Both the position numbers and the translations under genes were made by a program. Positions 7,385 to 11,882 of a stretch of DNA of 22,587 nt are shown piece after piece. Numbering within the stretch: position 1 is the stretch's first letter; each line of letters begins with the position of its first letter. Where the stretch lies: positions 1-22,587 of IMG/VR virus record IMGVR_UViG_3300043464_001693. One strand, written 5' to 3'. The DNA comes from a virus. The notes beneath the pieces were generated by a model. The model did not search any database, had not been told where the DNA came from, and was given only the letters and a program-made list of their open reading frames with translations.

Positions 7385-7537
7385 TTATACCCCTTTAGTT
7401 TTATTTAATACCTCAATGCAATAATCAATCCACTTTTGAACTGATCCAAATAGCTTAATAATCTGGTCTTTTTGTTTTGGCTCTAGTCGGATAGACATTG
7501 GCCGTCTAACCTCAGAACCTTTACGCTTAGCTGACAT
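7385..7537 (-). CDS. Small ribbon-helix-helix-like DNA-binding protein
   Basis: 50 residues. The order is a basic N-terminus (SAKRKGSEVRR), a short strand (PMSIRLE, residues 13-19), a helix (PKQKDQIIKLFG) and a second helix (VQKWIDYCIEVLN). That is the ribbon-helix-helix layout of CopG/Arc-type repressors, which bind DNA as dimers through the strand. It starts inside the end of the upstream gene and ends KGV-stop, where GGGGTATAA is also the SD of the next gene. No strong SD of its own is seen, so coupling is likely. A candidate early regulator of this region. Confidence 0.6.
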   Translation of the reverse strand: MSAKRKGSEVRRPMSIRLEPKQKDQIIKLFGSVQKWIDYCIEVLNKTKGV

Positions 7538-7769
7538 AGTTTAAAACTCTGTTACAATAAATGCTATAAATATGCTTAGCTCTCTTTGTTGTTGGAACAG
7601 ATATTTTTAATTCTTGTAATATAAAAAAATCATGCTCGTCATTATCTAACCCAGTAGTTGCATAAAATTTAACACAATTAACTAGCCTGGATATTTCATC
7701 ATTTAAACTTTGTATTTCATCTTCTTTTGATTCAATAACATCGTATAATTCTTTTATTTGATCTTTCAT
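7527..7769 (-). CDS. Small coiled-coil protein
   Basis: 80 residues. Residues 1-35 (MKDQIKELYDVIESKEDEIQ and onward) form a clear charged coiled coil, followed by an acid-rich loop (GLDNDEHDF) and a beta/basic C-terminus. The ATG is preceded by GCGAGGTATAAA, the common SD cassette. It overlaps the start of the RHH-like gene by 11 bases. No family recognised. A role as an oligomerising accessory factor of an early operon is plausible but not shown. Confidence 0.65.
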   Translation of the reverse strand: MKDQIKELYDVIESKEDEIQSLNDEISRLVNCVKFYATTGLDNDEHDFFILQELKISVPTTKRAKHIYSIYCNRVLNYVS

Positions 7770-7770
7770 T

Positions 7771-7908
7771 TTATACCTCGCTTAGGTCTTTAACCCAAAA
7801 ACTAGATGCAGTCATTATTACTTTATAACCTTTTTTCCCTTTATAGACTTCAGCAAGAATAAATAATTGATTGTTTGAAAATGAGATTAATGTAAAAGTA
7901 TGTTTCAT
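7771..7908 (-). CDS. First gene of leftward operon, 45-residue protein
   Basis: The ORF encodes MKHTFTLISFSNNQLFILAE and then a basic turn and strand (VYKGKKGYKVIM), ending SFWVKDLSEV. It reads as a small beta-rich protein (a short antiparallel sheet), without signal peptide. Evidence for translation is the AAAGAGGTAATAA directly before the ATG, its place 25 bases after the predicted transcription start of the leftward promoter, and its final codons GAG GTA TAA, which form the SD of the next gene. Function unknown. Confidence 0.6.
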   Translation of the reverse strand: MKHTFTLISFSNNQLFILAEVYKGKKGYKVIMTASSFWVKDLSEV

Positions 7909-7939
7909 TTATTACCTCTTTGTTGTTTCGTATAAAAAC

Positions 7940-7968
7940 ATTATAAGCCTAAACGTGTTACGAATCAA
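7940..7968 (-). promoter_or_regulatory. Leftward sigma70-type promoter of the early operon
   Basis: On the minus strand TTGATT (7963-7968) and a perfect TATAAT (7940-7945) are separated by 17 bases. The predicted start is near 7933, about 25 bases before the ATG at 7908. This is the best promoter in the window and would drive the 45-residue gene and, because no terminator was seen, the whole leftward operon down to rusA. Confidence 0.75.
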
Positions 7969-7991
7969 GATAATATTTAACAATACCTCTA

Positions 7992-8020
7992 ATTATACCA
8001 AATTTTAGCTAGTTATATAA
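7992..8020 (-). promoter_or_regulatory. Possible second leftward promoter
   Basis: A second TATAAT on the minus strand (7992-7997, preceded by GG) has a poor -35 element (TTATAT, 8015-8020) at 17-base spacing. It is immediately followed by AGAGGTATTG, an SD-like sequence with no clear gene. It may add to leftward transcription or be a decayed start site. Confidence 0.3.
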
Positions 8021-8030
8021 AAAATACAAA

Positions 8031-8061
8031 GTACTATAATCGTACTGTACTAATATCGTAC
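8031..8061. promoter_or_regulatory. Tandem GTAC-N7-GTAC repeats, likely operator
   Basis: Two 15-base elements, GTACTATAATCGTAC (8031-8045) and GTACTAATATCGTAC (8047-8061), differ at two central positions and are spaced by one base. Each has GTAC half-sites 11 bases apart, about one helical turn. They lie between the leftward promoters and the rightward promoter at 8085, where a repressor could control both. The XRE-type protein (10781) or the RHH-like protein (7385) are candidate binders; no direct evidence links them. Confidence 0.5.
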
Positions 8062-8084
8062 TAAGTATTATCAATGGGTTACAC

Positions 8085-8113
8085 TTTACAGATCGATTTT
8101 GCGCTTTTATAAG
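8085..8113 (+). promoter_or_regulatory. Rightward promoter in front of structured RNA
   Basis: TTTACA (8085-8090) and TATAAG (8108-8113) are 17 bases apart, a good sigma70-type match. The predicted start is near 8119-8121, one to three bases before the GGGAA that begins the closing helix of the structured region. The coincidence supports transcription of that region as its own RNA. Confidence 0.6.
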
Positions 8114-8119
8114 AAAAGA

Positions 8120-8440
8120 ATGGGAACGTGAAAATTGCCCTTAGTGATAAGGTGTCGAGAGAAACAGGCGCATAGAGGAATCTAGCTGTACTTGGTAAAC
8201 GAGCGAGAAAGAACCAAGCGTAAGGCCCAGAAAGATTAATAAGATTCTTAGCAGTCTTATATTATCCGCCTATGAAGAATAGGACATAGTAGCCAGGAAA
8301 CAAAAAATAATCTGGTGAGTAGAATTTAACTTCCCTACAAAGATAGAGAAAAGTGTATTCTATGGGCTAAAATGTAAATTTAGCATATTCACTTTATTCG
8401 TGCGGTCGCACGTGGTCGCAGGGTAAAACCCATGCGCCCC
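8120..8440 (+). ncRNA. Candidate multi-branched structured RNA of unknown class
   Basis: No ORF of note lies here, yet nested complementarity is dense. A long-range helix joins 8122-8136 (GGGAACGTGAAAATT) with 8323-8335 (AATTTAACTTCCC): 5+2+5 pairs. Inside are hairpins 8139-8152 (CCTTA, GTGA tetraloop), 8173-8184 (TAGA, GGAA tetraloop) closed by 8164-8167/8186-8189, 8191-8196/8213-8218 (CTTGGT/ACCAAG), 8234-8244/8255-8266, and 8269-8273/8279-8283. Downstream are 8350-8371/8379-8395, 8399-8412 (CGTGC/GCACG) and 8414-8438. Two loops are GNRA type. A promoter sits directly in front. It does not match the conserved parts of RNase P, tmRNA, 6S or SRP RNA that I know. No U-run terminator was found, so the 3' end is open. 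Bases 8441-8528 are AT-rich with nothing recognised. Confidence 0.6.
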
Positions 8441-8528
8441 TTTGCTTATAAGAAAATTTAAATTACTAGGTTTACCTTGTTAATAGTTGCACCCAAAGAA
8501 TCTTGCTGAGTGCTTAACATTACATAAT

Positions 8529-8556
8529 TTGACTTAACTAGAATTGATTGTAACTA
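8529..8556 (+). promoter_or_regulatory. Promoter giving a possibly leaderless mRNA
   Basis: TTGACT (8529-8534) and TAACTA (8551-8556) are 16 bases apart. The predicted start, about 8562-8564, coincides with the ATG of the exonuclease gene. No Shine-Dalgarno precedes that ATG, which agrees with leaderless translation. The -10 is only moderate. Confidence 0.45.
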
Positions 8557-8563
8557 TTTAATT

Positions 8564-9535
8564 ATGACTAAGGTTACTTTTCATGATCTTGTAGTTCAAT
8601 TAAAAGAACTTGCTAAAGAGCTTGAACGTACTCCTACCCAAATTGAGTTTGTTAATTCTGGTGTGTCAAAGAGACAAATTCAAAAATACACTTACTCAAA
8701 GATTGTTGACGCAGCAGGATTAGAACCTAATAAGTTTGCTCAAAAAACTGCCCCTATAGAACCAGCAATAAGGCCACCTAAAATATTATTCTATGACATA
8801 GAAACTGCCCCTATTACTTCTTACGTATGGGGACTCTTTGACCAGAACATTGGACTAAACCAAATAGTCGAAGATTGGTTTATTTTATCTTTTGCTGCTA
8901 AGTTTCAAGGTGAGGATAATTACCATTACTTTGACCAGCGATCAGAAACACCTGTTCAGGATGACAAAAACTTACTTATTAGCGTTCATAAGCTATTATC
9001 CGATGCTGATGTACTAGTAGGCCACAATGCGATTAAATTCGATTTTAAGAAGCTTAATGCACGATTCATTAAACATGGTCTTGTTCCACTAAATAATTTT
9101 GTTAATATCGACACCCTTAAAATTGCTAGAAAGCATTTTGCTTTTACCAGTAACAAACTAAGTTACCTTGCTGAGTATCTTAAATGTGAGTCAAAAAAGT
9201 CTGAACATAAAAAGTTTTCTGGAATGGATATGTGGGTTGAGTGCCTTAAAGGAAACCAGGAAGCCTTCCAAGAAATGGAAGCATACAACAAAATGGATGT
9301 TGAGGTTCTTGAACAAGTCTACAATAAACTTGCCCCATGGGAGCCGACGATCAATTTTCAAGCATTTTACTTTGGAACAATTTGCTCATGTGGTCACACA
9401 AAGTTTTTTAAAGATGGCTTTCGCTATACTAGGCAAGGGAAGTTTCAAGTATTTAGATGTCATAACTGCGCAAAGACGTTCACTGCTAAGGAAAACTTAA
9501 TTGATAAGGATCTTAGAAAAAGCTTTTTTAAGTGA
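8564..9535 (+). CDS. RNase H-like 3'-5' exonuclease with HNH-repeat N-terminus and zinc ribbon
   Basis: 323 residues in three parts. Residues ~8-53 (LKELAKELERTPTQIEF and SKRQIQKYTYSKIVDAAGL) match the helical repeat seen in homing-endonuclease-associated proteins, a DNA-binding module. Residues ~73-256 form a DEDD-type fold: FYDIETAP (Asp78, Glu80), VGHNAIKFDFKKLNAR (Asp160), YNKMDVEVLEQVY (Asp245). Residues 274-302 make a zinc ribbon (CSC, then CHNC), like those of transposase- and recombinase-type proteins. It probably trims DNA or RNA 3' ends. It is the first rightward gene after the intergenic region, with no SD before its ATG. Substrate unknown. Confidence 0.8.
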   Translation: MTKVTFHDLVVQLKELAKELERTPTQIEFVNSGVSKRQIQKYTYSKIVDAAGLEPNKFAQKTAPIEPAIRPPKILFYDIETAPITSYVWGLFDQNIGLNQIVEDWFILSFAAKFQGEDNYHYFDQRSETPVQDDKNLLISVHKLLSDADVLVGHNAIKFDFKKLNARFIKHGLVPLNNFVNIDTLKIARKHFAFTSNKLSYLAEYLKCESKKSEHKKFSGMDMWVECLKGNQEAFQEMEAYNKMDVEVLEQVYNKLAPWEPTINFQAFYFGTICSCGHTKFFKDGFRYTRQGKFQVFRCHNCAKTFTAKENLIDKDLRKSFFK

Positions 9536-10203: not shown

Positions 10204-10800
10204 ATGGTTTATATTGATTACGTCAAAAGAGCTAAAGAATTACTAACACAAATTGAATGTCATCAGGTTGAAATAGCTTATCTTGCCACAATCGTTTGCG
10301 AAATAAAACATGGCGGAAGACAAACTTCTAAAGAATACAATTTAACAAAGTTTGCTAAAGACATTGGAGTCAATCGCAAAACCCTTTCAGGGTGGGTTTT
10401 AATTTATAAAAACATTATAAAAAAAATAGGAATACATTATAAAGAGGTAACAAAAGCTGACTGGGAAAAGGCTAGTTTAATTGACGAATACCTAAGGCAA
10501 GAGATTCGAATCATGCAAACAATCGAAGGAAACAAAAGAAAAAAAGGCGCATACAAAGAACTCTCAGAAGACTATATAAAAGATATATATGGAAAAGCCT
10601 ATTCAACTATTGAGTTGCAACAAAAAATAAATAATTGGAACAGATATGTAATCTTTATAAAAAACAACCTACAATCAAAAGATTTAAATTTAGTTAGCGC
10701 ATCGTCTTTGTTGTCCATAAAAGAAAACATGGATGCCGCATCGGATATCATATTAAGACATTTAACAATGGGGAAAAAGAATGATTCATCAATCAAATGA
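10204..10800 (+). CDS. HTH-containing putative regulator
   Basis: 198 residues from the ATG at 10204, chosen because GTGGGGTTTAAA (the cassette form) precedes it; a GTG at 10192 is less likely. The segment at about 46-68 (LTKFAKDIGVNRKTLSGWV) is a helix-turn-helix of the MerR/XRE-like kind. A long basic helical region follows (IIKKIGIHYKEVTKADWEK), then two further helical domains to the end. It could bind phage DNA as a regulator or replication accessory. The stop overlaps the start of the XRE gene by 20 bases, so the two regulators are cotranslated. Confidence 0.6.
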   Translation: MVYIDYVKRAKELLTQIECHQVEIAYLATIVCEIKHGGRQTSKEYNLTKFAKDIGVNRKTLSGWVLIYKNIIKKIGIHYKEVTKADWEKASLIDEYLRQEIRIMQTIEGNKRKKGAYKELSEDYIKDIYGKAYSTIELQQKINNWNRYVIFIKNNLQSKDLNLVSASSLLSIKENMDAASDIILRHLTMGKKNDSSIK

Positions 10801-11080
10801 AGTTGCTAAACTTATGAGAGAGAAACGAAGGGAACTTAAAATGTCTCAGAGGGAATTATCTTCTAGAGTTGGGTTCTCAACAAAGGAAGGACAATTTATA
10901 AGTAATGTTGAGCGTCAGAAATGCCAATTTCCTATTCGCTACATAAGTAAACTTGCAAATGCTCTTGAAGTTTCAGAACAAACCATCATAGATTTAATGG
11001 CTCAAGACTATAAGAACGCAATTATTAAAGAGGTATTAAATGCACATCAATTATTTAATCAAACAACTAATCAGCTATGA
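10781..11080 (+). CDS. XRE-family HTH repressor-like protein
   Basis: 99 residues. Residues 7-72 form a standard Cro/CI-type HTH: VAKLMREKRRELKMSQRELS (helices 1-2), then the recognition part FSTKEGQFISNVERQK, and ISKLANALEVSEQTIIDLM as the fourth and fifth helices. No peptidase or dimerisation domain is attached, so it resembles small phage repressors. Targets could be the GTAC repeats at 8031-8061 or the dyad at 12599-12624, both without proof. GGGG lies about eight bases before the ATG. Its end overlaps the next gene by 41 bases. Confidence 0.8.
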   Translation: MIHQSNEVAKLMREKRRELKMSQRELSSRVGFSTKEGQFISNVERQKCQFPIRYISKLANALEVSEQTIIDLMAQDYKNAIIKEVLNAHQLFNQTTNQL

Positions 11081-11249: not shown

Positions 11250-11882
11250 ATGATAGCCGTTTGGTTTAGTTCTGGTGCAGCCAGTGCGGTTGCAGCTAAG
11301 AAAACTATAGAAATCTATGGAAAAGATCACGAAATTAGGGTTATTAATAATCCAATTAAAGAGGAACATGAGGATAATTTAAGATTTCTTCGTGATGTAG
11401 AAAATTGGATTGGTAGAAAAATAGAATTTGCAGTAAACCCAAAGTTTCCAAATGCTTCAGCTTATGAGGTGTGGGAAAAAAGAAAATATATGTCTGGTGT
11501 TTCAGGTGCGCCATGTACTTTTGAATTGAAAAAGAAAGCAAGACAATTATGGGAAGAAACAAACAAACCTGACTTTCATGTTTTAGGATTTACTTTTGAT
11601 GAGATAAAAAGACATCAAAGATTTGTTACAAACGAGAGAGAAAATGTTTTACCAGTATTGATTGATCTTATGATTACAAAAGAAGATTGTTTTAAAATTA
11701 TCCAAGAAGCTGGAATCAAGCTTCCAGAAATTTATTCAATGGGCTATCCAAATGCAAATTGTATTGGATGCGTTAAGTCAACAAGTGCGACCTATTGGAA
11801 CCTTGTTAGATCAAAGCACCCAGAGGTATTCATAGAGAGAGAGACAATCAAGACACATAGGTGCAAGACTTGTGATTTATAA
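11250..11882 (+). CDS. PAPS reductase/ATP-PPase-like protein, frameshifted near its 3' end
   Basis: 210 residues as read. FSSGAASAVAAK at 6-17 is the PP-loop of adenine nucleotide alpha-hydrolase proteins, with SGAPCTFELKK at 85-95 and CIGC at 171-174. PP-loop enzymes use ATP in reductive or modification chemistry, and phage relatives are often placed with DNA modification, without a proven role here. The ORF ends after CKTCDL, but in the +1 frame the family C-terminus continues (see 11836-11985). The probable intact product has 244 residues and a four-cysteine zinc site. An (AG)5 repeat at 11834-11844 is the likely shift point. AGGA lies seven bases before the ATG. Confidence 0.75.
   Translation: MIAVWFSSGAASAVAAKKTIEIYGKDHEIRVINNPIKEEHEDNLRFLRDVENWIGRKIEFAVNPKFPNASAYEVWEKRKYMSGVSGAPCTFELKKKARQLWEETNKPDFHVLGFTFDEIKRHQRFVTNERENVLPVLIDLMITKEDCFKIIQEAGIKLPEIYSMGYPNANCIGCVKSTSATYWNLVRSKHPEVFIERETIKTHRCKTCDL

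Follow-up and report, generated by a model that had tools for sequence, protein, structure and literature searches.

A structured RNA in a phage control region and its apparent exchange with a second, unrelated RNA class

Known structured phage RNAs and the control region of the new locus

GOLLD and ROOL are large and elaborate noncoding RNAs of phages with no known function, and ROOL contains pseudoknots (PMC12286853). The put RNA of phage HK022 (about 70 nt, two stem-loops) is found in one copy per early operon, with putL located just downstream of the early promoter (PMC9378689). The RNA described here, termed class A, is found in a 22,587-base virus record (the window, i.e., the whole stretch of DNA analyzed), at positions 8120–8440 of the plus strand (presumed ends). 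Its slot is intergenic, between divergent gene groups, and it was recognized by homologs and compensatory changes. Like GOLLD and ROOL, class A is a large, elaborately folded, phage-encoded noncoding RNA, but its length is about 320 nt compared to more than 800 nt for many GOLLD RNAs. GOLLD and ROOL are often located near tRNA genes whereas class A has no tRNA gene nearby: ARAGORN detected no tRNA or tmRNA in the window or in the related loci L003, L007, and L017 (these records are fragments). Unlike GOLLD and ROOL, class A is tied to a control region and is exchangeable with another RNA. Like putL and putR of HK022, it is a structured RNA whose start lies at a phage promoter within a divergent control region.

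The earlier note on this DNA could not assign the RNA to a class, and no Rfam 15 family matches it. At gathering scores, the window and nine loci of relatives were unmatched except for a tRNA in L002; the models of GOLLD, ROOL, group I introns, and 6S RNA gave no match, and the E-value mode applied to the window and L017 yielded chance-level hits only. In blastn searches of GenBank phages, the window and class B (the second RNA, see below) were unmatched. One match of L017 covered 11% of the query and was judged to be chance. Class A is a structured phage RNA of a known kind (cf. GOLLD and ROOL) that belongs to no known family.

Immediately upstream of class A is a promoter, accompanied by operator-like repeats. 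The promoter consists of TTTACA (8085–8090) and TATAAG (8108–8113) on the plus strand with a 17-base spacer, as reported in the earlier note. Hexamers and spacing are constant in L007, L003, and L017 (CATAAA in L017) while the spacer sequence drifts. Upstream of it, between the divergent promoters, are two tandem GTAC-N7-GTAC repeats at 8031–8062 (GTACTATAATCGTACT and GTACTAATATCGTACT), the window's sole GTAC-N6-8-GTAC sites. They are kept in relatives and are putative protein-binding sites; the HTH protein encoded at 10781–11080 is a candidate binder. A leftward promoter-like site on the minus strand (TTGATT-17-TATAAT, 7940–7968) scored 10/12 in a consensus scan. The control region also varies on its left side: window positions 7401–8024 correspond to a far shorter stretch in L007 and L008, in which the small leftward genes of the window are missing.

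The leftward genes encode a RusA-like resolvase, a polymerase exonuclease subunit, SSB, and an Erf-like annealing protein. The rightward group starts with a DNA polymerase exonuclease subunit homolog (8564–9535, plus strand; phrog_403, 1.3e-87), which forms the right flank of the RNA cassette, followed by the HTH regulator, PAPS reductase, HNH proteins, terminase, and the major head protein. The PAPS (phosphoadenosine phosphosulfate) reductase homolog, an auxiliary metabolic gene, is located at 11250–11882. The exonuclease gene is preceded by a separate promoter-like site on the plus strand (TTGACT-17-AACTAT with TG before the second hexamer, 8529–8557), which persists in relatives carrying class A or class B RNA and also in the RNA-less L006. 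It ends six bases before the ATG and there is no Shine-Dalgarno sequence; the form is similar in relatives. A transcript starting so close to the ATG would be leaderless, and the exonuclease mRNA is therefore probably of this type.

Relatives and folded structure of class A

The IMG/VR database was searched with the neighboring exonuclease and terminase proteins, which gave 5 and 33 loci, respectively. Class A RNA is present in three further records (L007:1456–1786, L003:2788–3122, and L017:102–430); L004 and L049 duplicate the record of L017, and L051 duplicates that of L003. Over the RNA the identity to the window is 97% (L007), 87% (L003), and 83% (L017). Identity over the adjacent exonuclease gene is lower than that of the RNA in each case (71%, 80%, and 76%, respectively). 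Three pattern scans of IMG/VR found no class A members beyond these three. The other hits of one scan were mostly a single unrelated coding sequence, and none of the extra hits fits the class A profile. Model R1, run on the whole records of 35 relatives, matched L007, L003, and L017 only. Class A is a narrow family within the data searched, where absence of the RNA from a record is weak evidence since the records are fragments.

A 65-pair structure was drawn up manually on alignment A4 (window, L007, L003, and L017), and its pairs were then counted. Standard pairs occupy 97.3% of the structure cells on the plus strand (253/260), a percentage that is favored by deriving the structure from the same four sequences. 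At least one compensatory change was found in 13 pairs, compared to 4.9 in shuffled alignments (sd 1.6; none of 500 shuffles reached 13), and these pairs are spread over seven different helices. When one strand was shifted by one to three columns, the paired cells fell to 32–48% and the compensated pairs to zero to two. Twenty-five cells are G-U; the complementary strand pairs in 229 of 260 cells compared to 253 on the plus strand. G-U cells pair on the plus strand only, so the plus strand is the structured one. Invariance is as high in unpaired columns (78%) as in paired columns (75%), which would be expected if the RNA is folded and its loops are functional. A formal covariation test needs more than four sequences, and the closing helix and a possible second long-range helix accordingly rest on near-invariant pairs.

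The earlier note described a closing helix of 12 pairs. The helix is real and is found in four of four sequences, but it has nine standard pairs, which flank a C.C/G.A internal loop: 8122–8126 pairs with 8331–8335 and 8129–8132 with 8325–8328 (strands 8122–8132 and 8325–8335). It is almost invariant (one G-C to G-U change) and carries little covariation as a result. The two GNRA hairpins reported inside it hold up well, the GNRA form being retained despite sequence change. In the hairpin at 8139–8152 (one compensated pair) the loop GTGA is replaced by GCAA in L017; in the hairpin at 8173–8184, part of a two-part hairpin at 8164–8189 with two compensated pairs, GGAA is replaced by GAAA in L003 and L007. 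This retention makes tertiary contacts via the loops possible. The other enclosed hairpins that had been proposed are likewise retained among the relatives. The hairpin at 8191–8218 has an invariant 16-nt loop (AAACGAGCGAGAAAGA) and one compensated pair, while the one at 8234–8266, with its inner stem 8239–8246/8253–8260, shows one-sided changes only. The hairpin at 8269–8283 (loop GAAGA) contains three compensated pairs and that at 8292–8316 (A-rich loop) contains two. The possible second long-range helix pairs 8224–8228 with 8364–8368; it is near-invariant and hence unproven.

A helix between 8319–8324 and 8358–8363, with two compensated pairs, was absent from the earlier description, as was the RNA exchange reported below. 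This helix and the closing helix cross each other, and L003 shows compensation in the former; class A RNA is therefore pseudoknotted. Three hairpins had been drawn downstream of the closing helix. Two of them are retained as stems: the hairpin at 8399–8412, whose sequence differs among relatives with a few mismatches in the stem, and the GC-rich terminal hairpin at 8414–8439, where sequence varies but the loop TAAAA and most of the stem are kept, again with a few mismatches. The inner part of the third (8350–8395) was over-read, as L003 and L017 are unable to form it. The minimum-energy fold of the window, pairing 8162–8173 with 8432–8443, was also rejected; it is impossible in L003 and L017.

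The region contains no coding frame, as the earlier note had stated (stops break all six frames of 8114–8447), and its G+C content is 41% compared to 25–26% in the flanking intergenic DNA, which fits an RNA gene. Folding of single sequences is only moderately unusual (z = −2.46 for the window, −2.53 for L003, and −1.77 for L017), and the complementary strand of the window folds about equally well (z = −2.29). The similarity of the two strands would suit a DNA element or a chance structure with no RNA gene at all. This explanation is extremely unlikely given the compensatory changes in seven helices, the G-U pairs confined to the plus strand, and the conserved promoter. The case for the RNA rests on the strong comparative support. 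The earlier note had also pointed to uncompensated drift of paired positions as a check; run on the relatives, its outcome favors structure, and the comparative data back the prediction that the phage encodes a noncoding RNA of about 320 nt which begins at the promoter. It was concluded from the alignment that a genuine structured RNA encoded at 8120–8440 (plus strand) is confirmed.

A second RNA class in the same slot

In L008 and L002, the flanks of the window are found without class A RNA, and the space between them is occupied by another conserved RNA (class B, about 235 nt). Class B is found in eight phages: L008:3044–3276, L058:4689–4917, L062:4484–4714, L069:3713–3945 (minus strand), L002:4660–4877, L061:24–244, L059:4041–4261, and L073:7350–7569. 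All eight matches of a class B pattern scan are class B members; three hits of the pattern in MAGs, where any similarity is confined to the pattern and its immediate surroundings, were taken as chance. Class B has no Rfam match. In all eight phages a pseudoknot helix of 7–8 bp joins the loop of the first hairpin to a segment further downstream. Its strands vary almost everywhere, yet they pair (CTTGTTTC/GAAACAAG, GCCTATTC/GAATAGGC, and ATCACTTC/GAAGTGAT). The helix at the 5' end is likewise retained through sequence changes. Classes A and B are alike in their slot, their flanks, their start just after the promoter, and the presence of a pseudoknot, but they differ in length and helices and show no sequence or covariance-model similarity. 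Grouping them into one family was rejected, as model R1 with filters off gave at most 5.9 bits on class B, which is not significant.

Phages carrying different RNAs can be very close relatives. Most proteins shared between the window and G007, the class B phage of L008, are 86–99% identical, and the class A phage of L007 is equally close to the window over the portion of the record compared. L017 (class A) and L058 (class B) are near-identical from the left through the −35 box and unlike over the RNA; near-identity resumes before the exonuclease promoter. The same clean exchange is seen on the left between L003 (class A) and L008 (class B), and on the right between L007 (class A) and L008. L007 carries a window-type RNA, but its exonuclease is 59% identical to that of the window and the exonuclease start is identical to that of L008; the RNA thus changes independently of its neighbor gene. 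Both exonuclease alleles are found together with class A, and the gene after class B may be the exonuclease, HNH, or another one. Since the same flanks carry the unrelated class B in close relatives, these phages appear to swap alternative RNAs.

HNH endonuclease-like genes are found in or beside the RNA slot in L006 (upstream of 5001) and downstream of class B in L059 and L073, which suggests a recombination-prone site. Their presence in or adjoining the slot would also fit an RNA of a mobile element, for example an HNH homing endonuclease-associated intron that is degenerate or unusual, and the closing and pseudoknot helices of class A do cross in an order resembling P3/P7 of the group I intron core. 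The likeness is of topology only, with no conserved core sequence recognized. Class A differs from group I introns in having no P4–P6 arrangement and no interrupted gene: its slot is intergenic, between divergent genes, with its own promoter upstream. Neither group I nor other introns were matched in Rfam, and the loops are too conserved for a dead element. We regard a mobile-element RNA as very unlikely.

Proposed function of the exchanged RNAs

We favor, with modest confidence, an autonomous RNA gene that is probably repressor-controlled and probably trans-acting, at a locus whose alleles are two unrelated RNA classes. Transcription would start at the promoter at 8085–8113, behind the operator-like repeats. 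The RNA of about 320 nt would fold into the pseudoknotted, many-hairpin structure and end in the hairpin at 8414–8439. It would act in trans, as a folded RNA or an RNA-protein particle, during phage development, and would be neither an antisense RNA nor the leader of one particular gene. The conserved fold and loops, the RNA's own promoter, the terminal hairpin, the promoter-like site of the neighboring gene, and the exchange point to such an autonomous, trans-acting gene. Transcription, the RNA start and end, early timing, and trans action are all inferred, the early timing of the promoter from gene content. Antisense action on the exonuclease start was considered and rejected, as a 27-nt complementarity in the window is not kept in relatives. 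No partner protein confined to class A was seen among the proteins compared and no target was found. Scans of bacterial genomes with the exonuclease and the class B pattern revealed no relative of the exonuclease and no host.

The main rival is a cis-acting leader, most likely a put-like antiterminator, in which the nascent RNA would bind RNA polymerase and read through terminators, with A and B as alternative modules. Lambdoid phages exchange antitermination modules, so the swap itself fits this explanation. The RNA also begins at its promoter in the manner of HK022 putL (PMC9378689), and no strong terminator follows it: the GC-rich terminal hairpin is terminator-like, but its tail is only moderately T-rich and it is not among the terminators listed by a terminator scan, so that read-through into the exonuclease gene is possible. 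On the other hand, the hairpin closes the RNA, a separate promoter-like site precedes the exonuclease gene in every relative, and class A, at about 320 nt and with a pseudoknot, is set apart from the two stem-loops and about 70 nt of put. It is also located on one side only. On balance a put-like antiterminator is rather unlikely.

A replication-linked RNA, serving as a primer or origin RNA like RNA II of ColE1 in principle, appears less probable still. The slot, in a divergent region, adjoins genes for replication and recombination, and two distinct origin modules could be interchangeable. No iterons were seen beyond the two operator-like repeats, however, and no linked initiator gene was seen; we consider this role unlikely.

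Returning to the autonomous RNA gene, the comparisons of flanking DNA suggest that phages may exchange structured RNAs as functional cassettes for the same or an analogous job. They also suggest that having one such RNA outweighs which one it is, or that the choice itself is selected. We propose tentatively, at a little short of an even chance, that two unrelated and previously unknown pseudoknotted RNA classes are alleles of one control-region gene, expressed from the same operator-bearing promoter and exchanged when near-identical phages recombine, making up an RNA-only specificity locus. Such a locus would be analogous to exchangeable immunity or antitermination modules, except that folded RNAs are exchanged. 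No description of two unrelated structured RNAs replacing each other at one locus was found in open-access papers, and we know of none. Large structured phage RNAs are few and mostly without known function, and two classes are added here. Near-identical phages that carry A or B at one place behind the same promoter provide a natural comparison and a clean experimental handle. With these loci, RNA genes would join the modules that phages exchange.
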